A stretch of 64,000 nt of DNA from Halichondria panicea (Eukaryota > Porifera > Demospongiae > Suberitida > Halichondriidae). This document shows positions 28,947-58,221 of this stretch, one piece after another. How positions within the stretch are numbered: the first letter of the stretch is position 1; each line of letters begins with the position of its first letter. The translations under genes were made by a program, and so were the position numbers. The notes beneath the pieces are model-generated. The model was not told the DNA's origin, searched no databases, and was given only the letters and a program-made list of their open reading frames with translations. The stretch is from contig NC_087377.1 in the NCBI RefSeq assembly GCF_963675165.1, positions 9,441,122 to 9,505,121 of the forward strand, in the 5' to 3' direction.

Positions 28947-31900
28947 TTATTTCTTGGAGGACCTCTTGGGCTTGTCCACGACAGTATAGATGACTCCAGA
29001 GGCAGTGGTCTCATGCTCAATTGTGTTGGGATCCTGGACAAAACAGTAGTGCAATAAAAAGCAGTCAGAGTAATATCAAAAGTTCATCCACTCCTGGTAA
29101 TTCATACCCAAGGCAGTATTCTCAAATGGTTTATCAAACAACCCTGTAATTGACTTATACCTGGAGTTTAAACTTGCAGTGAGTGCATGTACTTTACACA
29201 TACCTGATACAGAGCTTCTGGTGGAGTTGGCTTTGGTTTCTTGTTCTTCTTGCCCTTTCTATCGACCATGGCGTACTGGTCCTCAGTGCCTGGGGCTGAC
29301 TGGTGCTCAATGGATTTGGGGTCAGCATACAGGGAGTCAGCGGGAGGTAGGGGAGATGAGGTGCTTTCACTGTAGCAATCAAAGAACATTAATACATTCT
29401 GGTATAGGATAGGGTTAGAAGTACCGGCCAGAGCGGAACCCCAATATGCCACAACTCTTTAAACAGACATACACAGCTCACGTTAGTTTTTCAGCATTTC
29501 TTGGCTTTAACTTGCGATCCGAATCTAAAGCATAATTATAATCAAAACTAAAAAACATTTGCAATGTGAACGTTGCTAGGATTGCCAGGAAAAGAAAAGC
29601 GCGAAAAAGCGAAGAAACAAGAAATTCGGCGAGTGCATAACTCCAATCCGTTACAACTTCATTCACATGTACTGTTTCAATTTTTTGTTCGTTTTGTGCT
29701 TTTCCTGGCCAATCCTTCAGTAATTTTTATCATAATATAATTATAGTGAATTTTTTGCAAGATGTTTTACACACACAACTGCACTGTCAATCTTATGTAC
29801 AACCTACTGGTTGTACTAATTAAGTTGTGACTTACAGGGAAATTGCACAAGGAAAAGAACTAAACACAAGCAAAATGTTGTAATTGCAGATTATTATATG
29901 AAAGCATAATTATTTTACTACTCAAAAACGCAGCTCCTTTTACCTTGTTTGCAGTAACAAATGTAGAAGAGTATCCCAACACCGAAACAGAACAAGAACC
30001 CAAGGAGAACCACAGTCAAAATTGCCCAAAATTTCTCTGTAATGAAATTGAAATAGAAATCTTTCATCAATTCACTTACTTTCTGCGAGTCCGTTGAGAA
30101 GAGAGGTCAAGTATCGAGCTGTCAGCAATCCACAGACAATCCCAATTGCACAAGCCAGTGCCAGTATTACAAGAATGATCACCACAATCAGCCAAACAGA
30201 AACTGAAACAACTCAATCGTTATTATGACTACACGTTCATGCAAAGACAGCAACTTTGTAGTATAATAATTTATGTATACGCGTGACTTACATGTGCATG
30301 ATCTCAATCCAGTTGGTTCCCAAGTTCCATCAATGCAAGTGATTTGAGGCGAACCAATCAAATCATAGATAACCGAGGTACAGCTCAGAGTAGCAGTTGT
30401 GAGATGAGACACGTTACCGTTAGTTACATCTCCATTCAGCTGCATGGACAATCCACTGGCCATAAATAAAGAGAGGGCACTCATAGGGCATGCGTTAAAG
30501 TTGACATTGCTCTGAGTATCAACTATGGTTCCATCATACACGAGATTTGCGCGATAGCACAGATTAGTGGATGACGTGACAGGTACACAAGTCGACTGTG
30601 ACGTCAGTTGTACATTGGAGGTGCTGAAATCTGATGGACGCAAGTCTCGACATACACCAGATCCTTGTTCAAACTGGATGCTAAAGTCTTCATTTCGCTC
30701 AGAGGCACAGTTTTGACCAAGAGAGAATGTGAGGCAATTCATATTTTGTAGCGTACTGTCATCAATTACAAGCGCTCGAACTATACGATACAGTACAGGT
30801 ATAATGTAACAAAGCTCTCATCACAACAAATGGCATTTAGATCTTACCCATAATTTCAGCAGATACTTCACTGCTTGAATTTGCCGCATTCATGACAGTT
30901 ACAGTGAAAGTATACACATCATTCTCCACTGTGTTTGCGAGATGGTACATGTAGGATGAATCAGGAACAAACTCTGCATTCCCACTACGGCCACCAGCTG
31001 AAGTGAAAGTTATGTTTGGTGTATCAATTAGGGGCGGAGTCAACTGAACTGCTGAGTCACTGCTTCTCTGAACCTGTAATGTATGAATAATTATAATTAT
31101 ACAAGAGATCATTCACTTACTCCCTCCATCACACTCCATGATCCACTGATAGGTAGTGATGAATTGGAACAGTCAACGAATCCAGTCAACTGAGTCAGTA
31201 CAGGGGCTGAAAAATTAGCAATTGTATAATTATACAAACTCTGCATGGTGTTACTCACTTGTTATGTTGAAAATCACAGGAAAATCAATGCTACTACTGT
31301 TCAACACTCCTGGACACACAGCACTGGTAGCCACCACTCTGACTGTGTGAGACTCGGTGTAGCTTAATCCAGTCATAGTGATGCTGTTGTCAGTTACTTT
31401 CACTGAGCCACTGCCTTCAACCACACTGCCAAAAAATGTCACCCCTGTACCAAATGTCCCGTTACTGCTGACCAAAAGTGTGAATTGTCCAGTAGACTCA
31501 TCAACCACTGAGTATTCCATTTGATCAACAGTTGGAGTGGAAGGACCTGTATTATATACTATAGTTAAAGGCAAATAAGAAATTAATCGTATACACTGTG
31601 TTGATAACAGATTGCATGTACACGCAATTAGAGTGCTTGTACATGCATGCACGTGTGCAAGCAGCCACCTCACCTATATTAATTTGAATAGTCAAGTTCC
31701 TAACTTGAAGGTCGGGTGTACTAGACGCTCCAGCAAAACAAGTCACTACAGCACCATCCAGCGACTCAGTGATTAATAATTCAATAGTGGACCTCCTTGT
31801 TTGCTCAGTGCGTGAGCTGATCATACTAACAGTGAATGATCCACATAAACCTTCGCTATTTGGGGAGGCTGTGTGAGTGATAACAGTATCGCAGTCCATT

Positions 31901-32248
31901 GGTAGAGGAGGAGTGACCCTCCAACGAGTCAGGTCGACCCCATCATGAGAACAGGTGAGGCTGACGGTAGTGTTTGGACACACTTGGAGGAACTGATCAG
32001 TCACATTGCCACCACCGCTACTGACTTCTAAACTGCTTGCAGCCTCTAATTGTCACAAGTATTAACACAAGATTAATTAACTCCAGCATATTTATAGCTT
32101 GGTGATATAATATACTTACTACTGTACTATACTTACCTGTGCCTTTTTGATGAAGGCCTAACAGCAGGGCCAAGAAAACCTGCAAAACGAGCAAAGTCTT
32201 TGAAATGTAAAGTTTATGTAAACTTACATATACAGAGACAGAGCTCAT
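28947..32248 (-). CDS. Gene B: Ig/FN3/CCP-like receptor with two TM exons and four-tyrosine tail
   Basis: Twelve exons, all GT-AG with matching phases: 32248-32228, 32179-32137, 32045-31674, 31546-31259, 31206-31121, 31073-30848, 30780-30292, 30202-30080, 30036-29944, 29524-29482, 29369-29204, 29033-28947; 678 aa. Order: signal peptide (1-21, FLALLLGL), Ig-like (22-145, Cys44 and Cys53 in CPNTTVSLTC), FN3-like (146-241 and 242-345), Cys-rich region then CCP-like half (346-508, GSPQITCIDGTWEPTG), TM1 (about 510-535, WLIVVIILVILALACAIGIV), TM2 (about 553-577, WAILTVVLLGFLFCFGVGIL), tail 578-678. The tail has Y609, Y627 (QYAMV), Y649 and Y666 (VIYTVV, ITIM consensus) in a duplicated LYxDPxxIEH module, plus a Lys-rich patch. 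A predicted cell-surface immune-type receptor; ligand unknown. With both TM exons the tail would face outside, so isoforms are likely. Head-to-head with gene C. Confidence 0.85.
29540..29720. mobile_element. Single-arm relative of the 5938-6443 MITE, in a gene B intron
   Basis: AAAACATTTGCAATGTGAAC and GCATAACTCCAATCCGTTAC match the left arm of the 5938 element with about 80-90% identity by eye. It lies in the intron between the exons ending at 29944 and starting at 29524. Confidence 0.6.
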
Positions 32249-32275
32249 TCTCTTTCACTCACTGAGTTTCAGCAG

Positions 32276-32590
32276 ATTGACGCTCCAAATATGCGACACC
32301 CTCTCTTTTCCAATATTCTGACCTCTAAAAATAGCGACTGCAGCGTTCACAATTATTTTTTTATGTCGCGTCCTAAATAGAGGTCAAACCACAGCCTCGA
32401 TTCCAGGCCGCAAGAAACAATGTAATTTAAGCGGCCTATAATCGAGGACAGTAGAATCACCTCCAATTAGATGCGACCCTCTAAATATGCGACACCAGGA
32501 CTTCAACATAATTTTTCCAGGACTTCAACATAATTTTTCAACCTCCAAAGAAACGACCTCTGGCTTTGAAAGTGTCGCTATAAGCACTAC
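32276..32590. mobile_element. MITE (GCTCCAAATATGCGACACC family) upstream of gene B
   Basis: It shares CTCCAAATATGCGACACC and TATGTCGCGT(C/T)CTAAATAGAG with 22275-22573, and carries a CCTCGATTCCAGGCCGCAAG segment inside. It begins within 30 bp of the gene B start codon region, where identity with gene C stops, so it separates B from the ancestral upstream sequence. Confidence 0.6.
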
Positions 32591-33283
32591 TATCTATGCT
32601 TTATGTACGGTACATACAAAAATATACTATTCAGCCAAGTCAAAAGCCTGCAAGCGATTTTAGCACTCCATACTCTACTAGAGTAATTTACCAATGACCG
32701 GACACTAGCGGTTTTCGTACACTCTATCTCGATCTCGTGACCATCAAGATTCTACAGTGATTGTAGGGTATGTAAATGTAGCTACTGTATGTGCCTTGCT
32801 GCACAACCAACTATCAAGTCTCAATCGTGCTTGCTCTAGACATGCCAGCTCAAAATAAACGACATTCGGAACACACCATGATCGTACAACTCTAGCTGTC
32901 TTCGGACGGGGCTTTTTGTATAGCGCTAGCTAGGGCTTATCTAAGCTACTATGTATGGATAGAAAGACCAGGCCTTGGGCTGCAAGCACAAACAAAATCC
33001 AGCTCTCAACTCCTTCTAGTTTTGTCAAAAAAGCTGATACAAAATGCTAGGTATGCTTTTTACATTGCGGACACGTCCTCCTATCGAATGCCATTTTCCT
33101 GTCATGCGCAGTTTATACCACATGGCAAGGAGAGAGCAAGGAGTCGCCATTTAGTTTACAGTACAGATCAGCAACCATTTAATTACAGATCAGCATCTGT
33201 AAGTTAAATTACATTTTCAGCCATTTCTCTAACTGTTAATTGTGTGTTAATTGTTTGCAGGTGTGGAATGTATCCACTGTTAG

Positions 33284-36200
33284 AATAGGATCATAAGATC
33301 TTCAAAATCTGCTCATGTGGGCTCTCCCCAACCATCACAGCCTGTGAGGCCAGAAAAATATAAGAAATGGACCCAAGAACGGCTGAAGTTAGCATACGAT
33401 GCTGTTTTGAATGAAGAGTTAATAAGTATTCGCGAGGCAGCTGATGCGTTTGATGTTCCCAAGTCTACTCTTCATGACAGAGTATCCGGCAGAGTTCCGT
33501 TTGGTAAACTTAGTGGTTCTGTAAGATATTTGTCCGATGCGGAGGAAATGAATTTAATAAAGTTTATTAAACAGTCTGCCAAAATTGGTGCAGCTAAATC
33601 TAAGGCTGATGTCATTTCTATAGTACAGCGAGTGGTTGATGCAAAAGACATGAAAGTTAAAGTCACCAGTGGATGGTGGGAGTCCTTTAAAAGACGGCAT
33701 AAAAACGAAGTGTCTCTGCGTAAGGCTGAGCCGATCTCCTATGCCAGACTTGTTGCCAATAATCCGGATATTATCAATAATTACTTTGATTATTTGGAAG
33801 ATACTCTGCAGGAAAATGACCTTTTGGACAAGCCATGCCAAATTTTCAACTTTGATGAATCGGGATTTGCTTTGTCTCCTGCACCACCCAAAGTAGTGGC
33901 TGTGAAAGGTGCCAAGCATCCGTACACTGTCAACTCAGGGACAAACGCTCAGATCACAGTCTTGAGTTGTTGCTCGGCCGGTGGTACTAATATCCCTCCT
34001 CTGATTGTTTTGGCTACAAAAACTCTAAACCCTAAAATGGCAATTGGAGAGGTCCCTGGCACTGTATATAGCTCTTCTGATAATGGATGGATGACAACAG
34101 GGATATTGGACGAGTGGTTTGCCCAACACTTTTTGTTATATGCTCCTCCGGTTCGCCCTCTGCTTTTGCTCATGGATGGCCATTCTTCTCATTTTGGTCC
34201 TGCCTTTATTGAAACAGCTGTAGCCAATGACGTGATAGTGTTTTGTCTCCCTCCCAATACAACTCACTTTCTGCAACCACTGGATAATGGTCCATTTGGC
34301 CCACTATATAAAGAGGTACTGGAGGCAAGAATGCCATTCATTCTGCAACAGTAATCCAGGGAGAGTGGTAACGAAGCTACAATTCAACCAGCTTTTCAGC
34401 AGGGCATGGAGCCAGGGAATGACTATGCAGAACATTGCTGCAGGATTTCAACACGCTGGTGTCTATCCGTTCCGACGTCCAGAGGAAGAAGATTCCTCTA
34501 TACAGCGTTCCTCCTTAGCCAACAGTACCAACATTAGGTACCTGCCTTTTCATACTCCAAAACAGCGCAGAAGAATTAGACCATCTCATACTATTGTCAC
34601 TGGTAAGAAATCTATATAGTGTAGCATTGCATTTACTGTGTCCTCTTAGTTGGCGAGGGCAGACGTGGTCGTACCACTGCCAGAGGAGGACTCCAGTCAG
34701 ATGATGAGTGTAAGAATATCTGAGTGTGTGTGTGTAGCATTGTATTCACTGTGTCTCCTTGTACACTAGTTGGCGAGGGCAGACGTGGTCGTACCACTGC
34801 CAGAGGAGGACTCCAGTCAGATGATGAGTGTAAGAATATCTGAGTGTGTGTGTGTGTAGCATTGTATTCACTGTGTCTCCTTGTACACTAGTTGGCGAGG
34901 GCAGGCGTGGTCGTACCACTGCCAGAGGAGGACTCCAGCCAGATGATGAGAGTAAGAAATCTCTTGAGTGTTTATGTTTAGCAAGTTTTTTAATGCATGT
35001 ACTCTTCGTTTGTTAGCTATTGAACCGTTGCACATCAGTAATCAAGCTACTACTCAGGATTGTGTTGGTTAGTATATGTGGTAATATTGGTTTGTGAGTA
35101 TTCAGCTCTAGCGCATGTCTAGAATTACTGCATGTAATTTTTTTATTCATGCACACAGCTATACAAATGAAGAAATCTCGAGTTTGTTTAAATGCTCCGC
35201 GTTCTATAATCTTAAAAATTCTAGGGAATAGCTCATCAAGCTACAAGCCGCCCTCTGTAAAGAAGACTCTTCAGCTTAAAGATGTGCTTGTGACAGGTTC
35301 TGCTCGGAGAAAAGAATTGAAGGAAAAGCAGGTGATAAAAGATGCAAAAGCCAAAAAAAGCAGAAAAAGATGAGCTTAAGAAGCAGAAGTTATTGAAGAC
35401 CACAATTTCAGCTAGTCAAGCCAGTAAGTGTGTATGTTGCATGCTTCTTACATTCATCGTTATAATATATGTACAGTTACACTTAAAAAAGCTATACTTG
35501 ATATTTCATAACAATTTTAAAGGTACAATAATCTCGTTTTGATTGTCACTTACACATGCAATGTAACCTATACGTAGGTTCCCAACCATCTCAACCCAAA
35601 GGTTCCAAACCCAAGAAGGCAACTAAGAAAGGTACTAGTCTAATGTACAGTATACTAACAAATAATTATGCATGGGAGCAGTACGTTTTCTTCCCCTCAG
35701 CAGCTGCAGATGTAATACAGACATGTAGGTCACATTCAGTCAAAATTTAGGGGGTATACCTGTAACTTACGATGATTGATAGATAGCCACAGTTCGTAAC
35801 GCTCATCACGGTCACAGATATCATACCCTTCTTCGAATCTGATTTCAAACTTCTTACTTTCTTGCTCCGTGAATTTTTCATTAGACAACAATACTTGACC
35901 ATAAGGTATTTATAGAGAGAAAACACTTACCACAAGAATCAACACCAGGCTGAGTACGACTAGACCTACATGTTTGGTCAATGACACCTTTGCGGGCACC
36001 ACCTAAAATGACAAAACTTGGTTGTAGTTACATGTGCATAGTACACCAGTAATGGTGCATGTGTTAATATTATACACTATACTGTTCATTGTTATAATTA
36101 TGTGCATGCTGCCATTATACCTAATTCTACAGATCTAGATGCTACGTCACAAGAGCGAGACAAATGTAAGTTGTCGCAACTTCCAATAATTCCATGCATA

Positions 36201-39571: not shown

Positions 39572-39580
39572 CAGCTAACG

Positions 39581-40383
39581 TAGCCTCGGTCCCAGGCCGA
39601 TTTTTTTTTAATAGAACGAAGTTGAAAAACACGGCCTGGTATTGATTGTATCTGGGCGTGGCAGGAACAGGAAACAAAAGCAGAGATTCTTTACATTTTG
39701 TTTCCTGCTTTTTTTCTGTAATACTAAAGGTGTACGTAGAGGCATTTTACTCCCGTAAAAGTTACAGTAATTTAGCTCCGTGTCATGTTCTCAATTTATA
39801 GCTAGCTAGCTATGGCATGCAACACATTGTCTTGTTTGAAGCAAGATGGCCTCACTCTCATGGCAGAACAGGCCCAGGCTCTCAAGCTCCTGTTTGAGGG
39901 AAGGGACGTGTTTATCTGGTTCCCAACAGGGTATGGCAAGTCTCTCTGCTATATCAGTTGCTACCCTTTTTAATGGACTACAAGCTAGGTAGGACCAAGG
40001 CTCCTCCTGTTGACAAAAGTGTTGTTCTTGTTAATTGTCTCTCCCCTTGTATCTCTCATCATGAGACTCATGATTGACCAGATCAGGAGTCTAAACAATA
40101 GAGGTGTTTCTGCTGCCATCCTCAGTAGCAATAAAGGAATCGACAAAGATTTGGTTGCCACTGCCAAAGAAGTGTCTTCTGGGAAGTATTTCCTGCTGTA
40201 TACTGCCCCAGAGGCTGTTGTTGAAGACCACTGTTGGAGGATTCATTTTTTGTTGTACCACAAGTCAATTTGTTTTTATGTATTAAAAAACCACGCCCAG
40301 ATCACGCCCAAATACAATCAATACCAGGCCTAGTAGGCGACCTAGCGTTCAATTGGAGACGGATCGGCCTGGGGTCGAGGCTA
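39581..40383. mobile_element. Mutator-like element, copy 3, with RecQ fragment
   Basis: Starts TAGCCTCGGTCCCAGGCCGA and ends with CTGGGGTCGAGGCTA. It is flanked by CAGCTAACG (39572-39580 and 40384-40392). It is shorter and more diverged than copies 1 and 2, with the RecQ fragment in plus orientation and no ZAD ORF. Confidence 0.82.
39812..40270 (+). pseudogene. RecQ-type helicase fragment (copy 3)
   Basis: From ATG 39812: NTLSCLKQDGLTLMAEQAQA, then LLFEGRDVFIWFPTGYGKSL (Walker A), a frame change near 39950, then LIVSPLVSLIMRLMIDQIRS (motif Ia) and LLYTAPEAVVED. The DEAH box is missing. The N-terminal stretch is less broken than in the other copies, so this one shows the ancestral reading frame best. 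Confidence 0.65.
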
Positions 40384-40850: not shown

Positions 40851-43800
40851 ATGAGCTCTGTCTCTGTATATGTAAGTTTACATAAACTTTACATTTCAAA
40901 GACTTTGCTCGTTTTGCAGGTTTTCTTGGCCCTGCTGTTAGGCCTTCATCAAAAAGGCACAGGTAAGTATAGTACAGTAGTAAGTATATTATATCACCAA
41001 GCTATAAATATGCTGGAGTTAATTAATCTTGTGTTAATATTTGTGACAATTAGAGGCTGCAAGCAGTTTAGAAGTCAGTAGCGGTGGTGGCAATGTGACT
41101 GATCAGTTCCTCCAAGTGTGTCCAAACACTATCGTCAGCCTCACCTGTTCTCATGATGGGGTCGACCTGACTCGTTGGAGGGTCACTCCTCCTCTACCAA
41201 TGGACTGCGATACTGTTATTACTCGCACAGCCTCCCCAAATAGCGAAGGTTTATGTGGATCATTCACTATTAGTATGATCAGCTCACGCACCGAGCAAAC
41301 AAGGAGGTCTACTATTGAATTATTAATCACTGAGTCGCTGGATGGTGCTGTAGTGACTTGTTTTGCTGGAGCGTCTAGTACACCCAACCTTCAAGTTAGG
41401 AACTTGACTATTCAAATTAATATAGGTGAGGTGTACGTAAATGCATGCACATGCACTTTATTAAATTACATTTGCATGTACAATATATAGAACCTCGATT
41501 ATCCTGACAGATTAACCTGACACCTTAAGCTCCGTTTACACGAGGCCTTTAATCCGGTATCATAAAATTTTAGGCCCCCCATGAGATTGGGCCCCCCCCG
41601 GGCCTAGAATTTTAACATTTTAGGCCCCCTCTTAAAATTTTTGGCCCCCCATTAACAGCACAACAGCGGTAATATTATGTGACAGTGCATTCTCAAAATA
41701 CACCAATACAGTCTTCTATGGTCTTCACAGTCTATGCAGTGCCAGTTACTGAATGCAGCTCTCCTCACACACACACATTTCATGCATGTACAGTAGTATA
41801 TACCACTGGTCTCACAGCCATCACACTGCACCATGTCATTCTATGAATCAGGCCTCATGCAGCACGAAGCACATAGGTGCCAACTGTCCCGAATTGATCA
41901 GGACTGTCCAAGATTACCCTTGTTCTGAAAGGAAACTGCTATTGTGATTCCACCATGATACAACAGTTTCTCTCTTGACTTCTATCTGTGATTCCACATT
42001 ACTTGAGAGCTGAGCCAGTGATGCTATTGGGGCATCCCCACAACAATTTACATCTTCTATGTATAGGAAAACATGGAGGAAGATATGAATTGTTGTCTTT
42101 GCACTGAAATTGTGTGTTTTATACTTTTTTGTCCTGAAATTTGGCTGAGAAAGTAAGCACGAAGTTGCAAATAATTATGGCGATAGCTACACTGTTAAAA
42201 ATGGTGTGTTAATTAACACGCATTTAGTGTGCTCGTTGCACTGTTTAAGTTTAACACACTGAGATGTGTTGATCAACACACACTCTGGAGTGTGTTAATC
42301 AACACTGGTGGTAGTGTGCTCACATGACATGCATATAAGTGTTTACATAGCATGCACTGTATAGGTAATGTGCTCACATGACATGCATATAAGTGTTACA
42401 AGTACATCACATTGTCATAGCAACAAGAGACATTGCATTGATACAGCATACTTCAAATTAAATGATTAACAGTGAACGAAGTAAAACATCCTATGACTAA
42501 TCTATCTAAGAAAGTGTACAAAATAGTTACATCGTTTGGTACCCTCTGCATGTTTGATTTCTGCTCCCTCGCAAAGATTTGACAACATTAACAGCGCTCC
42601 ACCTATAATAGAAAATTATTATTCCTGAATAACAGAATTAATTTCTCACCTAAACAGCAGCGTTACAATCAGCTTCAGAGTGATTGACGTCCAACTTTAT
42701 GACGGACCTTTTTTCTATGTACATAAAACAAGACATGGCTGTAATTAATTAATCACTAGTTCATTCTTACCTTTTGTGCTGATGACTTGATACTTCTGCT
42801 CTCCTTTAGAGCAAAGAACAGCACGGTGTGAAGGGACTTAACTTGACAAAAACCTCATAATTATATTATCTATAGAAGATTAACATCTTTACAATTTAAA
42901 AACTCACCTAAACAGTAGCATCACAACAGCTTTAGAGTGGCTGGAAATTGACCTTCAACTTAATGCCCGTTTGTTTCTACATGAGCACAGTTATTTACCA
43001 TAATTGCAATTAATAAGTTCACTCTTACTTTATGACTTGAAAACTTCTCTTCCCCTTGAACTCTGAATGCATAGAACAGTACGGGTCTAAAGACTTCTCA
43101 AAGGATCAGGACTAGACTTGGTAGTGGACTTGATCAAAAAGAAAAGCAGCTGCTCTGAAGATTGCTACGGCAACTGCACTGCTGCGCATGCGCATTCTAT
43201 AATTAGTTTATCTGTTCTATAATTAGATAGCAGGAAAATTGATCATGTGATCCAGAGCCAGTGGCCACATGGTACAAGATGAGACAGAGAATGCAGCAGT
43301 AGTCTTTCCAGGCTGCTCTGAGAGCCAAGAGAACAGCAGGATATACTAAAGATAAGTTAAAAAGTTGATATATTCAGTATGCAAATTCTCTCAAGCCCCC
43401 ATTGTCAATTTTATACACTGGACCAAGCTATATATAATATTATATGAACTGATTTTCTCTTAGCTGGCTCCCATTTGTTATAGCAGCATTGAAATGTAGT
43501 ATTATTACACCACTGTACTCATACTCATATAATTCTCTGTGCAGGTGCAGCTGGCTGTGGTTTACTCACAAGATTAACTGCTATAGTAACTTGAAACCTT
43601 TAATATGTTTTTGTTTAATGGTTATCCATAAAAGTTTGTTGCGTAGATATTTGTTGTTATCGATTATAAGTTTTATAATTGTGACATAATCTCTGGGCTG
43701 TTTTGCCTGTACAGTGGTGTAAAAAGCATAGTGTGTATGAATTACAGTTGGGCCTAGGGTATCAGTGTGTTCCTTTACGTGAAGTGTGTGTGTTACGTTA

Positions 43801-46800
43801 CACACTACTCAGTTGGTGTGTTCTGTTAACCCACTTCGTGTGTTAGTGAACACTGGGGTGCTCATTAACACACACTGACATTCACCAATAAAATTTAGTG
43901 TGTTGATTAACACCCCGTTTTTAACAGTGTATACAACAACATCGATTGTCTTACAGGCAGATCCAACATTGCAGAGCTGCATCAAAGCTCTTATAGGTAA
44001 AGCGCATGAGTAACTTGAAAGGTAAATCTTCCTTCACTTTGATAGAATAATAATGCAAACATTTTTGCTACTTTGATACAGAGTCTTTGCATGCATGCAG
44101 TCTCTTTGATGCTTTGTCAACTAATAGAGCTAACCTTACCATATTATTATATCTCTTTGACTTCGTTCTATCGTGCAGAAAAGGATAGCAGAAGAGGGGG
44201 GCCTAGAATGTTAACAGTTTGGACCCCCTGGGGGGCCTAAACTGTTAACATTCTAGGCCCGGGGGGCCCAAAATTTTAAAATTCTAGGCCCGGGGGGGCC
44301 TAAACATGGGGGGGCCCAAAATTTTATGACACCGGGTTGGAATCCGGATTAAACCTAACCGCGTTCGTGTAAAAGGCCCTTATCCGGTTCTAATCCGGAT
44401 TAGCCAACCCACCTTTGGAGGTGGTTCAGATTGTGTCAGAAGCGGTTTAGCTGTGAGTTAGCCTCGATCCCAGGCCGATCTGTCTCTAATTGAACGCTAG
44501 GTCGCCTCCTCGGCCTGGTATTGATTGTATCTGGGCGTGACTTCGTTATTATTATTAAGTCCATGTGGTCAAATGAAAATTGAATAAAATTAATGATGGC
44601 TTCTAAGTTTGTTCTTTGTAGGTTATGTTACAGCACTGATGCCATACAAAACAGAAGATATAAACATTTGTTCAGCAGTAAGGCTCTCAAAGAAGATATT
44701 CCAGGGAGGCTCAGTCTTGCATTGGATCTGCCTGTTAGTGATTCAGATGGCCTGTCAAAGATTGTCTGTCTTTCAAGAAGATAGAGTCCATAGAGGTGTT
44801 CAGGCTCCTGGCCAGACGTAGCTACCAGAAACAAGTGTCCAAAGAGCAGCTCCCTAGTAGTCCAGTAAGATCAGCCCCTAAGAAAAGGACTAAGGACACG
44901 AGTGGTTCCGATGCATCTCCTTTCACTGTGAGCTCGCGTCCATCAGCAAAGAGGAGTACCATCGGGGTTTGAGGAAAAAGGCTTGCTTTTACTCCTGCAC
45001 AAAGTAGGAAATTTTTAATGTGACAGTGTTGTAAATAAAATTATTTTTTTAGCTCACATTGATGGTCCACATAATGCCAGTGCCTCGACATAATCTGCAA
45101 TCGCTGTGGAGCTAGAGGGTAGGTCAGAAACTATCCAGTTTGCAGCCAACATTGGAGCACCAGGAGGGGCAAATGCTCTAAGCTCACCTAGGTGTGCATA
45201 GGCAGGACGAAAGTCAGAGCTCCTACAGAACATACATAATAATCACAACGGGAGTTATTAATAACTTGCCACTTGTAAACACAGTGTGCTTCGTCCACAG
45301 CTATTGCCACTAAAGAGGAATTGAGTGGAGGCTCTAGTAATAGCATCCTCCAACGATAGTCTTCAACAACAGCCTCTGGGGCAGTGAACAGCAGACGGTA
45401 CTTTCCATCCGACACATCTTTGTTAGTGGCAACAAGACTTCTGTCGATTCCCTTATTTAATACTACTGAGGATGGCAGCAGAAACACCTCTAGTGTTTAG
45501 ACTCCTGACCTGGTCAATCATGAGAGACACAAGGGGAGAGATGACAAGAACGGACATCCACAAGAACTACACTTCTGGCGACAAGAGGACCCTTAGTCCT
45601 ACCAAGCTTGTAGTCCATCAAGAAGGGTAGCAATTGATAGCACAGAGACTTGCCATACCCAGTTGGGAACCACACAAAAACGTCCCTTCCTTCTGACAGG
45701 AGCTTGAGAGCACGGACCTGCTTTCCTTGAGGATCAGTCCTTCTTGCTTCACACAAGACAGAGCATATGCTAATGCTTCTTGGATATCAAAAGACGTTGA
45801 AATTGCCATAGTATAGTAGCTAGCTAGCTTTACGGAGCTATTCATGAGATTACAATTATTTTTACGGAGTAGGTGCTCATACATACACCATTAGTGTTAA
45901 GTCGCTCAGGAATTCGCTCTTTTTTAGCGAATACCTGAGCGAGGTGGAGCCAATAAGAGCACGCTCAGATACACGCCCAGATACAATCAATACCAGGCCG
46001 AGGAGGCGACCTAGCGTTCAATTAGAGACGGATCGGCCTGGGATCGAGGCTAGCTGTGAGTAAGCACAAATGGCTAATTCTGAGGTGTTGTACATGTTCG
46101 TGGGTGTTTCTAGAGTAAGCCTGTAGCTTCCTATCAGTCCAATGTTTACGCAAATGAAATTAATGGTCATTTTACTATGCCCACTACTCAGAAAAATCTG
46201 ACCCGGATTCGACCCGGATTAGGTGTCGTGTAAACGGGGCTTTAGTTCCAGCTGAGGCAGGCCGGATAATCGAATGGATAAACTATGTCTTGATCCACTC
46301 AAATGGGCATCTGCGCATGCGATAACATGCCTGTGTCTATGGTAATAGCTGTTAAGTGTGCATGCATGTGAGTTATCAACATAGGTGTAAATGTATTTGC
46401 CTTTAACTACAGTATACCGGCCATTTGGTTTGGCACAGATTGCTAGCTAGATGTTTACTACACAAAAAACTTACCCTGAAATGCGGCCACTCGCTATTCT
46501 GTATACCAGTTTTGGCTGCCCTAAACTAGGTTTTAATGTACGTTTAATATGGCTGTTTTGGGTGAAATTAGATTACACGGAAATAGAGAGCATAAATTCA
46601 TGCTTCATTATCCAGACAGAACCGCCAAATTAGTCATTATGTGGATACGGTATATATAAAGCTGACTGCATGTGTATTTGCATTCCAGACGTAACTGCTC
46701 AACGGTTGACTGCATGTGTATTTGCATTCCAGACGTAACTGCTCAACGGTTGCATGCAACGAAAACTATAAGCTTTTCTAGTCATGTTCTCTTGGATTTT

Positions 46801-48661
46801 GAGTGATTCGTGGATTTGCAAACTAACTTTGTTCTCCAGTTATTTACTTACAGTGAGTTGCAGTTCGCACAGTTTCTATTCACCTTATGAGTTAGCCTTG
46901 CACTCAAGCACTAGCTTTTTGTTAGCTACAAGAGTCAGAAAAGAGCTACAAAGCTGCTGCCAGAGCTATTATGAACTTTAACCTATTGCGGATACACCCT
47001 TCTTGAGATCCTGAGACAGAATACAATTTCATGCATGGGCAATAATACAATATCCTTTTGTCTCACTACTGTCACAGGCCCTCCTTCCACTCCAACTATT
47101 GACGGTATGGAGTATTCAGTGGTCGACTCACCTACCGGACAATTCAGATTCTTGGCAAGCAGTAGCGGAACATTTAGGACAGGGGTCATTATTTCTGCCA
47201 GTGTAGTCGGAGGCAGTGGCTCAGTGGTTGTTACTGACAACAATATTATTGTGATTGGACTGAGCTACACCGGGTCTCACACAGTCAGTATTGTGGCTAC
47301 CAGTGCTGTGTGTCCAGGAGTGCTGAACAGCAGCGTCACTGTTGTTTCTGTGGTGTTTAACATAAGAAGTGAGTAGAACACCAGACTGAGAGTTTGTATT
47401 CTTTACAGTAGCTAATTTTCAGCCCCTGTACTGACTCAACCCACTGGATCCGTTGACTGTTCTAATCCATCGCTGCCAATCAGTGGATCATGGAGTGTGG
47501 TGGAAGGCGTAAGGGAATGATCTCTTACAGTACATGACTGTCCAATTATGGATGTATACACATCACTCACAGGTTCAGAGCAGCAATAACTCGGCAGTTC
47601 AGTTAGCTCCTCCCCCAATTGGTACACCAACCATAACCTTTACTTCTTCAGCAAGGGGTCTCAGTGGCAGTGCAGTCTTTGTTCCTGATTCATCCTACCA
47701 GCTCACAGACACAGTGGAGAATGATGTGTTCACTTTCACTGTGACTGTGACTAATGCGGCTGGATCAAGCAGTGAAATGTCTGCTGCAGTTGAGGGTAAG
47801 CTTTTTATTTCTTCTTTTGCTGTGATGAAAACCTCTTTGATGCCCATCTTGCATACAAGCACTGTATTATTATATAGTTACCCCGTTCATCGTTGATGAG
47901 AGTACGCTGGAAACAATGAATTGCCTCACATTCTCTCTCAGTCAAAACTGTGCCTCTGAGCAGAGTGGAAACTTTGTCATCAAGTTTGAACAAAGAAATG
48001 GTGTTTGTCGAGACTTGGTTCTATCAGATTTCAGCACATCCACCATACAACTGATGCCTCAGTCGGCTTGCGCATACGTGGCTTCATCCACTAACCTGTG
48101 TTATCGTGCAACTCTGATGTATAATGGAATAATAACTGACACTCAGACTAATCTCAACTTTGCTGCGTGTCCTATAAGTGTTCTTAATTCTTTCCTGGCA
48201 GATGGTGTTTCCTACCAGCTTGACGGAGAAGTCACTAGCGGCAACGTGTCTCACCGTACAACTGCTACTTTAAGCTGTACTGAAACTTTTGCTTCAGTAT
48301 CTGGAGCAGCTGTGGTGACATGTGTTGACGGTCAGTGGAACAACATGGGCATACAGTGGTGTTCTAGATCATGTGCAGGTAAACATTACAATGTCATATT
48401 AATTTAATTATGTGCTTTTCAGAAACTACTGCCATATCTGTAATCGTGACTTTCCTGCTGACCCTGGCTCTAGGAATCTCCATTGGTGTCCTCTTTGTGT
48501 TAGCAGTGAACAAGTACAGGAAGTCTGAGAAGGTGACTCTGCAAACTGAAACTGAAATGGGACAACCACCAGTCGCAATATACGAGGACCTGGATGTCGT
48601 TAAACCTGACCCTCGTACTCAGGGAAACCTTGCTTATGGACATGTACATGCAGTTAGTTAG
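40851..48661 (+). CDS. Gene C: Ig/FN3/CCP-like receptor with single TM and YED...YGHV tail
   Basis: Eight exons, GT-AG and in phase: 40851-40871, 40920-40962, 41054-41425, 47078-47368, 47423-47508, 47573-47795, 47878-48378, 48423-48661; 591 aa. Order: signal peptide (VFLALLLGLHQKGT), Ig-like (22-145, CPNTIVSLTC), FN3-like (146-242 and 243-345), Cys-rich plus CCP-like half (346-512, VTCVDGQWNNMG), one TM (about 516-541, TFLLTLALGISIGVLFVLAV) and a 50-residue tail with Y566 (IYEDL) and Y584 (LAYGHV, fits the ITIM pattern L-x-Y-x-x-V). Topology is type I. Exons 1-3 and their introns are almost identical to gene B, later ectodomain exons about 65-75% by eye, and TM/tail are unrelated. Intron 3 (5.65 kb) is filled with nested mobile elements, so splicing across it needs proof. 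Probably a cell-surface recognition receptor. Confidence 0.83.
41561..44328. mobile_element. TIR element with CATAAAATTTTAGGCCCCCC ends, third shell
   Basis: CATAAAATTTTAGGCCCCCC at 41561 faces GGGCCCAAAATTTTATG at 44328, with G/C-run-rich sub-terminal repeats (GGGCCTAGAATTTTAAC and similar) on both sides. No gene inside apart from the inner element. Confidence 0.65.
42189..43930. mobile_element. TIR element with ACACTGTTAAAAA ends, innermost
   Basis: ACACTGTTAAAAATGGTGTG at the left faces CACCCCGTTTTTAACAGTGT at the right. Sub-terminal GTGTGTTAATTAACAC-like repeats occur on both sides. The 1.7 kb interior has no transposase-like frame, so it is a non-autonomous element of unknown class. Confidence 0.75.
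44593..45018 (+). pseudogene. ZAD-like zinc-finger fragment (copy 2)
   Basis: MMASKFVLCRLCYSTDAIQN runs without the early stop seen in copy 1, through DIPGRLSLALDLPVSDSDGL and SKIVCLS. A short deletion then removes the second CxxC and shifts the frame. Copies 1 and 2 are therefore broken at different places, showing the ancestral ORF was longer. Confidence 0.5.
45108..45809 (-). pseudogene. RecQ-type helicase fragment (copy 2)
   Basis: Same order as copy 1: ISTSFDIQEALAYALSCVKQ, frame change, GRDVFVWFPTGYGKSLCYQL, SSNKGIDRSLVATNKDVSDG, APEAVVEDYRWRMLL and VAIAVDEAHCVYKW. The second exon carries FRPAYAHLGELRAF. A short insertion interrupts the motif Ia region near 45550. Confidence 0.68.
46663..46750. 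repeat. Exact 44-bp tandem duplication
   Basis: TGACTGCATGTGTATTTGCA...AACGGT occurs twice head-to-tail, at 46663 and 46707, in intron 3 of gene C. The identity suggests a recent slip. Confidence 0.9.
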
Positions 48662-48730
48662 TTTCGAATAAAACAGTGAGTCACCGTCAGTATGTTAAAA
48701 TTTAAATATCGTTTTTAGTCATAGGACCAG

Positions 48731-49719: not shown

Positions 49720-49796
49720 TAGAGAGAGAGTATCGAACGTAGGCATACTGTACATCAGATGTATGCGGAGAGTAACGTGACTTCCTGTATCTGTCA

Positions 49797-49937: not shown

Positions 49938-50039
49938 GTGTATGGCGCGCCATGTGTTTCAATAACAATGTCTGCATATACATAGGCATGTCCTGGTGTG
50001 AATATACCGACATAGCATGCACATGCAATGATCGCCTTA

Positions 50040-50405
50040 TGCAGTGATCATGTCTGCACATGCAACCATTAGTCTCTGCACATGCAGTGATCATGTCTGC
50101 ACATGCAACCATTAGTCTATGCACATGCAGTGATCATGTCTGCACATGCAACCATTAGTCTCTGCACATGCAGTGATCATGTCTGCCATGCAACCATTAA
50201 TCTCTGCACATGCAGTGATCATGTCTGCACATGCAACCATTAGTCTATGCACATGCAGTGATCATGTCTGCACATGCAACCATTAGTCTCTGCACATGCA
50301 GTGATCATGTCTGCACATGCAACCATTAGTCTCTGCACATGCAGTGATCATGTCTGCACATGCAACCATTAGTCTCTGCGTGTGCAGTGATCATGTCTGC
50401 ACATG
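50040..50405. repeat. Minisatellite, 43-bp unit, about 8.5 copies
   Basis: The unit starts ACCATTAGTCTCTGCACATG and continues CAGTGATCATGTCTGCACAT. Starts at 50065, 50108, 50151, 50193 and 50236, then regular steps; one unit is 42 bp. Inverted copies of the same unit lie at about 50585-50705, so the region can fold back. Confidence 0.92.
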
Positions 50406-50891
50406 CAAAATGTGTTCCAGCCGAGTACTTCAATGGCAGATTCGTCTTCATCCATGTCCATATCATCTATTATATCTATCATTAATTTTTAATACATCTT
50501 TGATACACGTGCTTTAAATAGAGCTGCGCATCAGGTCAAAGTATATGTTTCTCAATGGGACTCAGGTACACCTGTACTGTACTGCATGTGCAGAGATTAA
50601 TGGTTGCATGTGCAGACATGATCACTGCATGTGCAGACATGATCACTGCACACGCAGAGACTAATGGTTGCATGTGCAGACATGATCACTGCATAAGGCG
50701 ATCATTGCACGTGCATGCTATGTCGGTATATTCACACCAGGACACGCCTATGTATATGCAGACATTGGTATTGAAACACACGGCGCGCCATACTTGTGAC
50801 AGATACAGGAAGTCATGTTACTCTCCGCATACATCTGATGTACAGTATGCCTACGTTCGATACTCTCTCTCTATCATAAACTCTTGGCCCA

Positions 50892-52969: not shown

Positions 52970-54126
52970 CAGAGTTATACCTTCTCAGACCTCCTAGATC
53001 CTGTACTTGTTCACTGCCAGCACAATGAGGGCATGCACCAATGGAGACTACAAGAACCAGGGTCAACAGGAAAGTCAGGACAAATGTGAGGGCAACAGCA
53101 GCTCCAGTTAAGAAAGCTTCAGTTGAGAAAGATGTTCAGTTGAGAAAGATGTCACTGTAAACAAAGCAAACACAGTTATAACTATAAATAAGTACGACAT
53201 TCATGGATGCATTAATAATTATCGATAATTAATCATGCGCATTATAATTATACAAGTTGTATGCAAACAAACAGAATTTGCGCTTGCTATTGCACGAGTG
53301 AATTGTGCATCGGGCATACTTTAATACAGTTGAATGTTGGCTAAAAATTAATATGCATTTGCTCTAAGTTGATGTAAAGAGTAGAACAAACAGACCATAA
53401 TAAGTAATCAAGCGAGCGATGCATGTGCTTACAATGTGAATGATCCTGCATGTCTCACTCACTGGAATGGACACATCCACACTGGTGTTAGTCCGCAGGA
53501 CAATCCTGATAGAATATAGGAGTACTCCGCACCTGCAATTAGTCCATGTATATTGTGAAGATAGCAGTAAGTCATCAGTGATTGGTGCAGAATCAGCAGG
53601 GATGAGGGTGGAGATGATAATGAGTTTACTGTGAGGGAAACTGACCTCAGGTATAGCATTAGAGCGATGTTTAACACATTGTATAAGCACATGCATCGCT
53701 CTGCTTGATTACTGTTTGTTTTACTCCTTACATCAACTTAGAGCAGATGTACAAGACACTCCCCTATAGTCATAGAGGTAGGTGGTCTGTTCCAACCAAT
53801 AGAGTACGTAGTTTGTGATGCGATCAGTGTTAGTCATTTGATCTCATTGCAAAACTGTCCTCTCTGCATGAGTTGTAAATATGCACATTAGAAACACATA
53901 CATTATTTTACTCCTGAACAGAGAAACGAACAGTGAAAGAGGCATAGGGTATGAAGTTGCATACCCAAGAGATCAGCAGTGAAATTGAAGAGTGTACTAT
54001 AGTTTCTCCAGGAACGTGACAACACACCCCATATGCACTGTCACCATAATTATTGAATGGCATCAAGTAGATAAGATCTACTCTAGCAACACACTGAAAC
54101 TTAATTGCTGGTCTTGCTCCAAGCAC
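52970..54126 (-). pseudogene. Pseudogene F: decayed FN3/TM receptor
   Basis: Three remnants on minus. 54126-53908 is an FN3-like exon with VDLIYLMPFNNYGDSAYGVC and FIPYASFTVRFSVQE, comparable with the 55896-56098 exon of gene E. 53690-53460 is a second FN3-like exon, frame-broken, with LIIISTLIPADSAPITDDLL next to SSQYT, matching the QIITSLTPNDTAP...YQYT exon of gene E. 53128-52970 is a TM exon, VALTFVLTFLLTLVLVVSIG, close to gene C exon 8 but shifted after SIG, with stops in the juxtamembrane part. Signal peptide, Ig and tail were not found. It lies head-to-head with gene E. No product expected. Confidence 0.65.
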
Positions 54127-54401
54127 CTAAAATAGAGCATCACCATGGAAGTGCAGTAGAATAAAAAATGAATTTTGATGTCAAAATTACATCCTGGTCT
54201 GACTCCATTGATTCTATAGTAGAGGAAGATCTAAGCCTACATGCAGTTACAGTACACAGTACAGTGTTTTACAGAGTGGATTACTTTATTATTCTGCCAT
54301 AGCACCAGGCCCTGGTCCATGCAGGGATGATTAATTAAAAAGAGGGTAAGGATTGTAGCTGCTGTAGAATCTAGTTTTTTACCTTTTATTGTGTTTTTTA
54401 G

Positions 54402-57400
54402 ATTCTTCTGGTGGTTTTGTTCTTGTATCTTTGTTACCCAAGTGGAGCAGGTAAGCTAGATGTACATTAATTATATCTCTATAAGACATGATTTGATTGA
54501 GCCATGGCTTTGTATGTGTATTTGGCAGTACCCTTTCTTCTAGATCGTATAATTATATACGATGGAAAACAGTATGCACTACACAATCACAATCAGCTGT
54601 GATGAGCAATTATCGTTTGCAGATGCTGTTGGAAACTTGACATCCACTCCTGCATGAGTCCACCAATGGAGTATTGACAGCATGCCCAGGAGATCGTATC
54701 TCTATCACATGCACTCATAATGTTACTGCTGGCACTGGTCTTACTCATTGGGAGCTTCCTGGTGTTTCACTTTGTCTTGTTGTTCATGATGGATCTGCTG
54801 CTCCTAACTGTGCTCCATTCACGATCACAATGATCAGTGACAACTCTGGTCTTACAGTGAGCTCTACGGTTGAGATGACAGTTACTGACAGGGCACTGGA
54901 TGGTGAAAAGGTTGAGTGTAGAGCTGGTGCAAGTGTTACTAATTCTCTTTTAGTTGGATCTGTTAATATCAGTGTTCTCAGTAAGTTTATATGTGTTATT
55001 GTTGGCCAGGTAATACTGTTTTTGCAAACACAAGTACAGCTATTCCCACTCCAAGCATCACCCTGGTGGAGCAAACGTCTCAGTACATGGCAAATGTGAG
55101 CTTGTTGGTGAACAACACTCAGTGTGCTGCTACCTATGTGGTCAATGCTACTCAAGATGATAACAGTGGGTCAGTGAGTGGTGGGTCAAGCTCTACCACA
55201 CTTGTGATAGTCAATGGTCTGGATTTGTGTTGCTATAACTATAGCTTTGTAGGGTACGTCATCACGGCTGGTGGAAGTGTGGGAGATATGAGTGCACCAT
55301 GCACCTTTCAGCTTCACGGCAAACCTCTCAGGTATGTATAACCTCAATGTATGCATGTTTACACTATATCTCTGTTTAGGACTAAATGGCGGTGCTAACG
55401 TGATTACCAACTCAGAGAGGACAGTTTTGCAATGGGATCAAATGCCTAACACTGGATATCCTGATTGCATCACAAGCTACTCTATTGGTTGGAACGGAAC
55501 GACTTATAACACATCTGATACAGCTATCTCTGTGACTAGAGAACTACTGAGTGCCTCAGGGTTTCCTTTCTGTACGACCATCCATCACTGTGACACCAGT
55601 GACTCCAATGGGACTGTTAGCTGGGAGAGACTCTATATACTGCAGATGTCAGCTTAATCTCACCAGGTATAAATAAACAAATGTATAACATTATTTTTGT
55701 ATTACATTATTTCACAGATTTCGTGACACCTAATATTTCTGGTTTATACCTTTTGAATAACATCAGCAGCATGATCGTGGAAATTAATGGGACAAACGTA
55801 AAACTATCAACATCACGATCAAAAGATTCTCTGGGATGGTTCAAGTACGTAATTTCATAAAAGTGGAATAAATGTTACCCTTCATTTTTCTTCAGGGAAT
55901 ATCTCAGATTGTTAACCCCATGCACTCATATGATTGGGTACAGCCGGGCCGGCATGGCTTGTACACCTAACACAGTGTTCACTGATGACTCATTTGAAGT
56001 CACTCTTCCTGTCGATGCTGAGTTTGGAGAATCATTTACAATGTGCGTTCAACTGACCTTTGGGGACTGTATGGAAATGGCATCGAGAGATTTCACAAGT
56101 AAGTCTATCATTCTAACTCACATTTTAACTTGATGCGCATGTTGTGTTTCCACCCCAGTTCCCAGTCAAAACATCACTACACAGAATGGAGGAATAGTGT
56201 CGGGTACTAGCTTCACTGCCACCACAAACCTACCATTAACTGAGTATCAACCAGACCAGCTACAAATCATCACTTCTCTTACCCCCAATGACACTGCACC
56301 AGTTGTAGCCGACTTCCCTGCTAGCTACCAGTACACTGTGATGATCTCGGGTCTCATGCCTGGTACAAGTTACACCTACACAGTTCGTGTTGTGCGTCGC
56401 AATGACATGACAGATGTAGTGGACACTTTTGTGGCTGATTTCTTAATTGCAGCTCTCCGTAAGTTGACGAGTGGCTAATCTTGAGTAGAATTCCTAAATC
56501 AGTGAAACTAAATTATAGTTCTCAAGGCTATTATATACTTTAATAATTACTTCTCAGGCAGGCAAACAGAAAACTGTAATCATGACATTAAAACCAATTC
56601 CGCTTTAATTGATTCCACTTATTATTCTTACAGCAACAACAATGGCCCCAACTCAACCTCCAACGACGTCTCCCATCAGTGAGCAAACAACCTCATCACC
56701 AGGGACGCCTTCAGCACAGGGATGTACCGGAGGTTGCATTTCTGGAATCATCGTTGGTTTTCTGTTTGTTCTAATAGTTTTGGTCATCATTGTCATTGTT
56801 ATGTGCTACTGCAGCAAGACGAGGAGTAAGTGATTTTTCTCACTTAAAATGATGTTGGGTTAAATGACATAATTATTTTAGGAGAAATGAAGGTGTTATG
56901 GCATCAAATGGAACTACAAAGTACTAAAGTAAAACTGAAGTAAGTCGCATGCTATTAATTATTATGTGCATCAAAATTAAAAGTTGTGTTCTGAACAGTA
57001 CTTATTAGGGTTTCTTGTGAGGACACTTGGCTTTTTGATTGAAAGAAGTCAACTCATAAAATGTGTTGACTTGTTTACGTGCTTGTTGACATGATGTTAC
57101 CTTTTGTCTGCCCCTTGTCTTATGCATGAGTATATAGAATGTTTATTGGGCATGGTATATACATGTGCAAATACGTACACAAATCAACTGTGCTGTCCGT
57201 AATCGTGCACATTCTATACTTTGTTACACTACACCCCTGAATTGTATTAGACTGTGATAATTGTATTGTCAGAGAAATAGCAATATTACGTAACTATACA
57301 AATACGTTCAATATTTGTGCTGTATAAGTATACGTAATATTTACATCTGTGTTTACACTCCCTACACATGCAGTACCAACGATGAGGAGATGGATCCCAT

Positions 57401-58221
57401 GACCAACAGACCTGAATCCACTCCCACTTCTGGGACTATCGAGGTGAGTGACTTATATACCGTATATAGCGGGTGATATATATTTTGCGGTTTTCGCTGA
57501 GCCTGTAGCATGAACATTTATACCCACGAATATTAAGATTGCATGCATGCGCTAAAAGGTTGCTAGTCCCTGAATTGAAATCCTTTCTAACGGTTTTTCC
57601 GAGAAAATATATCCCCGCTTATATATATGCGGTATCTGTATAATTATAGACAAGTTTCTCAAGTTTTACTTAAAAAATGTAGACATAATTATAGAACTTG
57701 CACAGTCCACAGTACTTTAATAGTTGTGCGGTACAATTATTGACTAATATAATTGCATGTAAGAACCGGATCTTCAAGGTGAATGAGTTATCTCCATAGA
57801 CTCATGCATTTCAGAGTCTGCATGAATAATTATAATACCGAGTTTTCGTAAACTTAATAGTAATTGAACATCTATAGACTATACTTTAATATTGTATTGT
57901 TTAAATATCCATGTAATCGTTTGTCGGTATTATAGGAACACAAAATTAATATAATCCATGTCCCAATCCTTATATACGAATCACCCAAAAACCTTGATGC
58001 TGCTCAGTCTCTAAGATTTTGTAATTTTTACTTCCATGCATCAATTGGGTCCAGTATACGAAGATCCTGATGCCTTTAAAGTAGACCCCCACACTCAAGA
58101 CAATCTTGCCTATGGTCATGTTCAACAGTCAGCTCAATTGAAGGGACCGATATACGAGGACATTAAACCAGACCCCCACACCCAGGGGAACCTCGCTTAT
58201 GGACATGTGCAATTGAATTAA
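54402..58221 (+). CDS. Gene E: Ig/FN3 receptor with Thr/Pro stalk, TM and duplicated YED...YGHV tail (frame-broken)
   Basis: Exons seen: 54402-54450 (ILLVVLFLYLCYPSG, signal core), 54623-54980 (Ig-like, TACPGDRISITC), 55040-55331 (FN3-like), 55380-55666 (FN3-like), 55718-55844, 55896-56098, 56159-56458 (FN3-like, MISGLMPGTSYTYTVRVVRR), 56634-56825 (Thr/Pro stalk, then TM IIVGFLFVLIVLVIIVIVMC), 56882-56939, 57374-57443, and a last coding part ending at 58221. The tail has VYED...LAYGHV and IYED...LAYGHV, with Y-Y spacings 18 and 15. The ATG exon and the acceptor of the last exon are unresolved. Phase bookkeeping shows one extra base in exon 54623-54980 (near 54655), one at the 55331 border and two in exon 55380-55666 (GAGAG near 55625). 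So it is either a recent pseudogene or carries base errors; 55718 onwards is clean to 57443. Type I receptor by architecture. Confidence 0.65.
57462..57640. mobile_element. MITE with ACCGTATATAGCGGG ends in a gene E intron
   Basis: ACCGTATATAGCGGGTGATA faces CCCCGCTTATATATATGCGGT in inverted orientation. It lies between the exon ending at 57443 and the tail exon. Confidence 0.65.

Follow-up and report, generated by a model that had tools for sequence, protein, structure and literature searches.

Tyrosine-module tails apparently exchanged between shared ectodomains in a large surface-receptor cluster of the demosponge Halichondria panicea

The stretch of Halichondria panicea DNA analysed here (contig NC_087377.1, positions 9,441,122 to 9,505,121; 64,000 nucleotides, hereafter the window) contains four genes, named A, B, C and E, which encode predicted surface receptors ending in tyrosine-module tails. 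The common form of these tails is one or two bivalent modules Y-x-[DE] ... Y-x-x-[VL], with the two tyrosines 14-20 residues apart, and at least three classes (A, B and T) are distinguished. The genes and their main features are listed below, in window coordinates (Ig, immunoglobulin; TM, transmembrane segment).

28947..32248 (-): receptor gene B, 12 exons (from 32248 to 28947), 678 amino acids
31674..32045 (-): gene B exon 3, V-like Ig domain, from Ig profile A1 matches and DNA identity with gene C
30080..30202 (-): gene B exon 8, membrane segment TM1, phase 1-1, from hydropathy; its omission leads to a stop
29944..30036 (-): gene B exon 9, membrane segment TM2, phase 1-1, from hydropathy; its skipping keeps the frame
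29204..29369 (-): B tail exon 1, SLYADPKSIEH...DQYAMV (Y609, Y627) and Y649, from the spliced model
28947..29033 (-): B tail exon 2, DPNTIEH...VIYTVV, Y666, from the spliced model
40851..48661 (+): receptor gene C, 8 exons, 591 amino acids, GT-AG introns
48423..48661 (+): gene C exon 8, TM and a single A module, Y566/Y584 (module 48578-48646), from the 8-exon model
54400..58221 (+): receptor gene E, with a type II ectodomain; probably damaged, by a frameshift in the Ig exon and an altered acceptor at the tail exon
58048..58125 (+): E module 1, YEDPDAFKVDPHTQDNLAYGHV, spacing 18, open frame
58144..58212 (+): E module 2, YEDIKPDPHTQGNLAYGHV, spacing 15 (YEDI-x11-YGHV), in the open frame of E module 1
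326..1013 (-): receptor gene A, type III ectodomain exons at the left edge of the window, from exon searches

Gene B shows, in order, a signal peptide, a V-like Ig domain, two domains resembling fibronectin type III (FN3), a domain X with a sushi-like end, TM1, TM2, a juxtamembrane exon and the B tail, these domain names being readings of weak profile matches. Gene C shows a signal peptide and V-like Ig domain (40851-41425), two FN3-like domains, X/sushi, a TM and the A tail, and a 5.65 kb intron separates its Ig exon from the next exon. The tyrosines that an earlier note on this DNA had placed at 609, 627, 649 and 666 of gene B and at 566 and 584 of gene C lie at these positions in the 678-residue spliced model and in the 8-exon, 591-residue model, respectively, and the two module copies reported there for gene E, spaced 18 and 15, are both present in a single open frame. 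Gene A, too, beyond the three receptors named in that note, leads to an A-class tail, with two modules, located roughly 3 kb beyond the window edge (L023, from G000:C1:9438081). In gene E, the Ig exon shows a 4-bp insertion relative to L005, the only paralogue alignable there, and the splice acceptor of the tail exon is CAA, being CAG in 5/5 aligned paralogues. Either gene E is a pseudogene or the assembly is in error at this site, both being possible; a putative in-frame path from the TM exon around the damaged site is readable in the sequence.

The modules YED...LAYGHV and LYxDPxxIEH, for which the earlier note had proposed a proteome search, were searched in the whole genome (131.5 Mb). Of the matches, 47 came from the A module query (LAYGHV) and 23 from the B tail query (LYxDPxxIEH), and all of them lie between 8.607 and 10.882 Mb of C1, the contig of the window, which makes up 13.8% of the genome. 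A degenerate DNA pattern for LAYGHV found 25 matches, all on C1, against three for the reversed control pattern. The Ig exon of gene B, used as query, led to additional arrays at 11.29-11.40 and 12.84-12.98 Mb of C1, and a third tail class, T (YEEV..NEAYGPL), was read in seven stretches: four belong to the new arrays, two lie elsewhere on C1 and one on C7. Seven of the eight T modules read YEEV...NEAYGPL or NQAYGPL and the eighth ends in NEAYRPI; YEE and NxAYG are common to classes T and A. The T query gave at least 150 scored matches, 149 on C1 (11.249-14.928 Mb) and one on C7, a lower bound because 150 were scored out of 273 first-look candidates. Among the T matches listed, whose rows were read by eye, both tyrosines are covered in 148/150 and the frame is stop-free in 146/150. 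Matches of the three classes are on C1 in 219 of 220 cases, the T part being a lower bound, and since those of class T reach 14.928 Mb, the tail-bearing region of C1 extends from 8.6 to 14.9 Mb, about 6.3 Mb or roughly 5% of the genome. Four of the T loci, L057-L060, have matches to gene E as well, in the Ig exon and some other ectodomain exons, at 31-46% identity. The modules belong to a far larger family than the window genes, and the system is bigger than had been claimed.

The loci compared comprise 48 stretches, fetched through the module queries and pattern matches, and the window genes, giving 39 A-tail and 12 B-tail loci. Exon searches found four ectodomain types among these 51 loci, each with both A and B tails: type I contains eight A and four B loci, type II nine A and five B, type III eight A and two B, and type IV one of each. 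Thirteen A loci were left unassigned, and the type III assignments of L001, L003, L004, L036 and L037 are weak, at 27-37% identity, as is that of L010, with one exon at 40%. Three A/B pairs are independent of these weak assignments. L016 (A) and L041 (B) share 94.0% DNA identity over 2724 bp (L018/L041, 92.1% over 1892 bp), L024 (A) and L044 (B) share 91.7% over 2191 bp (L024/L038, 91.5% over 2199 bp), and L030 (A) and L047 (B) share 97.2% over 1580 bp and 97.6% over 531 bp. In windowed alignments, identity of the first two pairs drops to background at most about 0.25 kb ahead of the membrane exon, and in L030/L047 it drops a few dozen bases inside the first tail exon. The tail of L030 is a hybrid, with a B-module-like start followed by an A module in an apparently disrupted frame, and reads as a trace of tail exchange. 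Within the window, gene B (B tail) and gene C (A tail) show 98.7% identity over 617 bp, covering the signal peptide and Ig exons, and then 75.9% over 1207 bp by blastn, and their membrane and tail exons differ.

Near-identical ectodomains with different tails, and identity that ends near the tail, indicate that tails have been exchanged between genes sharing ectodomains. Very similar ectodomains, distinct tails and location in a single cluster, the anatomy of paired receptors, are all found here. Immune cells of vertebrates use such paired receptors, among them KIR, LILR, PIR, SIRP, Siglec and FcR-like, as opposing receptors. The likeness lies in near-identical ectodomains with different signalling tails in a cluster; the sponge genes show no evident sequence relation to the vertebrate ones, and which sponge tail would activate or inhibit is a guess here. 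This sharing of ectodomains across tails had gone unreported in the earlier note, and we consider it the strongest argument for the immune-type reading proposed there.

The pooled ratio of non-synonymous to synonymous substitution (dN/dS) was obtained from exon copies of at least 75% of the query length and without stops, the A_tailC set consisting of 17 named loci. It is 0.25 and 0.33 in two sets of A tails and 0.36 and 0.27 in two sets of B tails, against 0.68, 0.62 and 0.58 in the N-terminal Ig exons of types I, II and III; other ectodomain exons show 0.36-0.54 and the C-type membrane exon 0.48. Tails are more constrained than Ig exons, and it is only against Ig exons that the contrast is clear. 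Along the A tail (34 loci), pN/pS is lowest, at 0.20-0.26, over the two tyrosine motifs; it lies at 0.40-0.77 in the spacer and reaches 1.37 in a single short window immediately ahead of the first tyrosine. The start of the type I Ig exon shows windows of 1.1-1.2 with few changes, and no positive selection is claimed for it. Recurrence of the modules in a large number of genes is supported by 47 A, 23 B and at least 150 T matches, and their maintenance by selection by tail dN/dS of 0.25-0.36. These values bear on the idea that the family consists mostly of decaying duplicates, produced by repeat-driven expansion and with little present function, for which broken-looking copies (E, L030 with its disrupted tail, and L026 and L028, both of which have a stop in X) and the transposon and repeat debris of the window can be adduced. 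With pooled dN/dS below 1 in the tested tail and ectodomain exons (copies with stops left out) and 146 of the 150 T matches listed stop-free, this explanation is very improbable.

The motif grammar of class A was read from 58 module rows of the 39 A loci, 55 of which are full modules and were counted; L002 (half a module), L030 module 1 (out of frame) and L035 (first tyrosine missing) were left out. The spacing of the two tyrosines is 18 in 30 modules, 15 in 16, 14 in five, 17 in three and 20 in one. Asparagine occupies position -3 of the second tyrosine in 55/55 and alanine position -1 in 51/55, and the first site has proline at +3 in 22/55. The eight T modules all have asparagine three residues before the second tyrosine, keep N-x-A-Y without a hydrophobic residue at -2, and are spaced 17-18. 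In B module 1, both tyrosines are kept at 12/12 loci, the start is YADP at 10/12 and YADL at 2/12, aspartate is at -2 in 11/12 and the spacing is 18 in 11/12. B module 2 was recovered at 11 of the 12 loci, L048 missing, and its second tyrosine is kept in 8/11 copies.

The immunoreceptor tyrosine-based inhibitory motif (ITIM) follows the consensus [SIVL]xYxx[IVL] and the corresponding activation motif (ITAM) Yxx[IL]-x6-12-Yxx[IL]. The ITIM fit put forward in the earlier note holds mainly for class A, where 45/55 second sites conform, against 0/8 in T, 0/12 in B module 1 and 2/11 in B module 2; because of this distribution, the core NxAYG is a better description of A and T than the ITIM pattern. 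The statement that the spacing exceeds that of a classical ITAM is right for most modules, at 17-18, and wrong for the 15-residue ones, such as the second of gene E. No A module (0/55) fits the strict ITAM and 18/55 fit a relaxed form (valine allowed, gap 6-12), while the eight T modules are spaced 17-18. With ITIM, ITAM and hemITAM the sponge tails share paired tyrosines and a hydrophobic +3 residue at the second site, that of class A mostly fitting the ITIM pattern; they differ in that T and most B sites do not have the hydrophobic residue at -2, the spacing of mostly 17-18 is longer than in ITAM, and A and T carry N-x-A. It may be guessed, weakly, that the A tail is an inhibitory class, given the ITIM-like second site of most copies. 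Comparison of A with B gave an hhalign probability of 4.6% with P of 0.0027, and 426/5000 in permutations, whose B part consisted of ungapped B rows only. On these values A and B may or may not be related, and the third class T overlaps with the A motif; the description of the modules as two unrelated classes is not established.

The same tyrosines could serve trafficking. Yxx-hydrophobic and NxxY are consensus patterns of sorting signals, and the tails might be read by AP-2 or PTB adaptors, instead of acting as phospho-docking pairs: YEDL, YEDI, YGHV and YGPL match Yxx-hydrophobic, and the asparagine at -3 of the second tyrosine (A 55/55, T 8/8) suits NxxY. However, the 22/55 first A sites with proline at +3 are non-hydrophobic there, the start YADP of B module 1 at 10/12 loci leaves a first tyrosine that mostly fits neither pattern, and sorting would need neither the acidic residues past the first tyrosine nor the near-fixed spacing, so that a purely trafficking role is distinctly improbable.

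The ectodomain profiles are weak in the A and B receptors, where the Pfam sushi and fn3 signals of five query proteins are below the curated cut-off, and clearer in T receptors, which show sushi (L061) and fn3 (L062) above it. In the A/B query set, the initial 23 residues of the fifth protein are absent from the window and all loci, and six residues at one splice joint of the gene C protein, away from its sushi match, are incorrect. No Pfam Ig model matched gene B. A profile of 11 Ig sequences, in which C32, W42 and C103 are invariant, has as best PDB matches mainly antibody light-chain and T-cell receptor V domains, with E of 0.053-2.4, none significant singly, and the X profile weakly matches complement factor H sushi domains in PDB. 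The receptors are most likely of type I. Gene C, by reading, fits this with a signal peptide, one TM and a predicted cytoplasmic tail. Ahead of the B tail, one segment stands out in L038, L041, L044 and L047, and L039 and L040 show an extra, equally hydrophobic frame that was judged a GT-repeat. In gene B, without TM1 a stop is reached, and without TM2 the frame is kept and a single-pass receptor results; charge was tried as a topology guide for this gene and was uninformative (17 basic and 13 acidic residues after TM2).

Genes for putative signalling partners are encoded in the genome. Pfam matches on joined exon pieces identify an SH2-SH2-protein tyrosine phosphatase (PTP) gene (L049), an SH2-SH2-kinase gene (L050, the kinase domain read in part) and an SH2-ankyrin-SH2-kinase gene (L051), which we take, by their architectures, to be SHP-like, Syk-like and Shark-like, respectively. 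In one of the joined proteins, 2 of 172 residues, at joints, have no counterpart in the data. The common tandem-SH2 partner suggested in the earlier note has candidates in these three genes, although their presence does not show their use. An SH2-PH adaptor-like gene (L052, C1:8613183, 8.613 Mb), presumably DAPP1-like, adjoins an A-tail gene, and a second SH2 match at C1:8635968 lies beside a similar A-tail gene; the two A-tail receptors are L001 and L004. An SH3-SH2 gene at 10.83 Mb of C1 (L054), presumably Abl-like, was not taken as part of the system. A receptor-type tyrosine phosphatase with apparently many sushi domains is located inside the cluster (L053 and L056, C1:8.932-8.944 Mb); it was considered as a third, catalytic tail and rejected, its ectodomain reading as many sushi domains, with only one short, weak match (E 0.009) to a receptor exon. 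A large expansion of PTP domains, possibly of receptor phosphatases, is found on C4 at about 0.04-7.6 Mb, with most of the PF00102 matches among those listed.

Taken together, the window appears to be within a very large demosponge surface-receptor cluster in which tyrosine-module tails have been exchanged on shared ectodomains, with signalling like that of paired receptors, a reading to which we give a probability of about 60%. The outer domains would contact a self, non-self or microbial ligand, Src-type kinases would then phosphorylate both tyrosines of a module, and the phosphorylated pair would dock tandem-SH2 proteins, namely the SHP-like phosphatase or the Syk-like or Shark-like kinase. 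One ectodomain could signal differently, or even oppositely, according to the tail it carries, as paired receptors do. The receptors are most likely a self/non-self system, and the proposal of an immune-type receptor system fits the V-like Ig domains, the clustering and the paired-receptor anatomy, while the function remains predicted. A bolder and tentative extension, possible though doubtful, is that the C1 region of about 6 Mb is a sponge histocompatibility or immune complex in which tandem-SH2 proteins of the SHP, Syk and Shark types recognise the exchangeable tails.

Several observations weigh against this reading. Pooled dN/dS above 1 was found in none of the tested exons, and diversifying selection is therefore not demonstrated; the dN/dS of several ectodomain exons (0.36-0.54) comes as low as that of B tails, and B tail exon 1 shows pN/pS of 0.26-0.56 with no clear minimum at the tyrosines. 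Some tail classes depart from the ITAM and ITIM consensus. Gene B carries two membrane segments, as do seven relatives (L022, L026, L028, L042, L043, L045 and L048), and the tail would face outward if both segments were used. The tail loci were found through module similarity, which favours conserved copies and makes the counts lean upward; ectodomains were assigned from exons within about 4 kb upstream and not from transcripts; and the damaged-looking copies named above belong to the same family.

The cluster could also consist of lineage-specific cell-adhesion receptors, whose modules tune adhesion or the cytoskeleton via Src-type kinases with no self/non-self role. Sponge Ig proteins are presented in a review mainly as adhesion molecules (PMC11999971). 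The receptor PTP with many sushi domains lies in the same region, and FN3 and sushi domains are common among adhesion proteins. Some 200 clustered tails and tail swaps on near-identical ectodomains, however, exceed what is usual in adhesion families, and this explanation is fairly unlikely.

As for the recognition system preferred here, its nearest parallels are known allorecognition receptors. Hydractinia Alr genes, which number 41 (PMC11999971), and Botryllus fester co-receptors (FcoR) bear ITIM/ITAM-type motifs (PMC12065747). FcoR show a V-type Ig and sushi ectodomain, a TM and a tail with ITIM, hemITAM or core YxxI/L/V, and the oligomorphic FcoR loci can exchange motifs through splicing (PMC12065747). 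According to the same paper, the proteins proposed for allorecognition in sponges, cnidarians and ascidians are not conserved, while tyrosine-motif signalling is common to cnidarian, ascidian and mammalian systems (PMC12065747). Alr and the sponge genes are alike, by description, in being Ig-superfamily receptors that are clustered and have tyrosine motifs in their tails, whereas the sponge system has Ig, FN3-like and sushi-like ectodomains, bivalent Y..Y modules, three tail classes and about 200 tails. FcoR share the V-type Ig and sushi ectodomain, TM and tyrosine-motif tail; in the sponge, by contrast, tails vary between genes with matching ectodomains, the A and T motifs are NxAYG-type pairs and one chromosome is concerned. 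Expanded recognition families of demosponges include NLR, SRCR and Ig-TIR genes (PMC12909245, PMC8242945, PMC6208332). The likeness to these repertoires and to the aggregation factor lies in the expansion itself, and the portions at hand give accounts of them without tyrosine-module tails or ectodomain/tail exchange (PMC12909245, PMC8242945, PMC6208332). A full-text literature search, with subscription papers and preprints largely outside its coverage, found no sponge tyrosine-module receptor cluster among the entries listed. By mechanism, the system is a variant of clustered tyrosine-tailed recognition receptors, and no membership in Alr, FcoR, KIR or, as a whole, the ITIM/ITAM classes is claimed. 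The observation of the earlier note is confirmed, and its interpretation, supported in part, pointed in the right direction.

Other features were seen in the window and the genome. A long open frame at 33284-34354 (+) contains HTH_psq and DDE_1 domains and is presumably a pogo/Tigger-like transposase. Similar helicase-like frames are found at 8334-8797 (-), 45188-45890 (-) and 39985-40333 (+), with a DEAD match for 8334-8693 only, and another repeated frame is found at 8849 and 39149; together they are probably a dispersed mobile element, whose 45 kb helicase-like copy sits within the long intron of gene C. Tandem arrays are present at 50039-50408, 16612-16861 and 34647-34971, with units of 43, 84 and 122 bases, the region at 16-20 kb of the window shows high GC and strong GC skew, and a zf-AD domain match at 7578-7940 (+) is slightly under its cut-off. 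The type III Ig exon and the X domain have distant relatives outside C1, on C8 (0.83-0.92 Mb) and C3 (2.34-2.82 Mb); in the one C3 X-domain locus read (L055), the downstream open frame shows no tyrosine modules. On C2, three matches to a silicatein motif lie within 11 kb (656.9-667.9 kb; control 0). One of the two loci read there, from joined exon pieces, scores 223.8 bits with PDB silicatein alpha, the second-best match, a cathepsin L, reaching 140.3; the genome is accordingly very likely that of a siliceous demosponge.

The discrimination of self from non-self in sponges is a long-standing problem. The shared tyrosine-motif signalling would be extended to sponges by a mapped cluster in which tyrosine modules are conserved, tails are exchanged and partners are encoded, and the genes, exons and peptides given here supply concrete material for grafting and phospho-binding tests. 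If the bolder reading of an immune complex is true, one of the earliest branches of the animals already used paired activating and inhibitory recognition or evolved it on its own.

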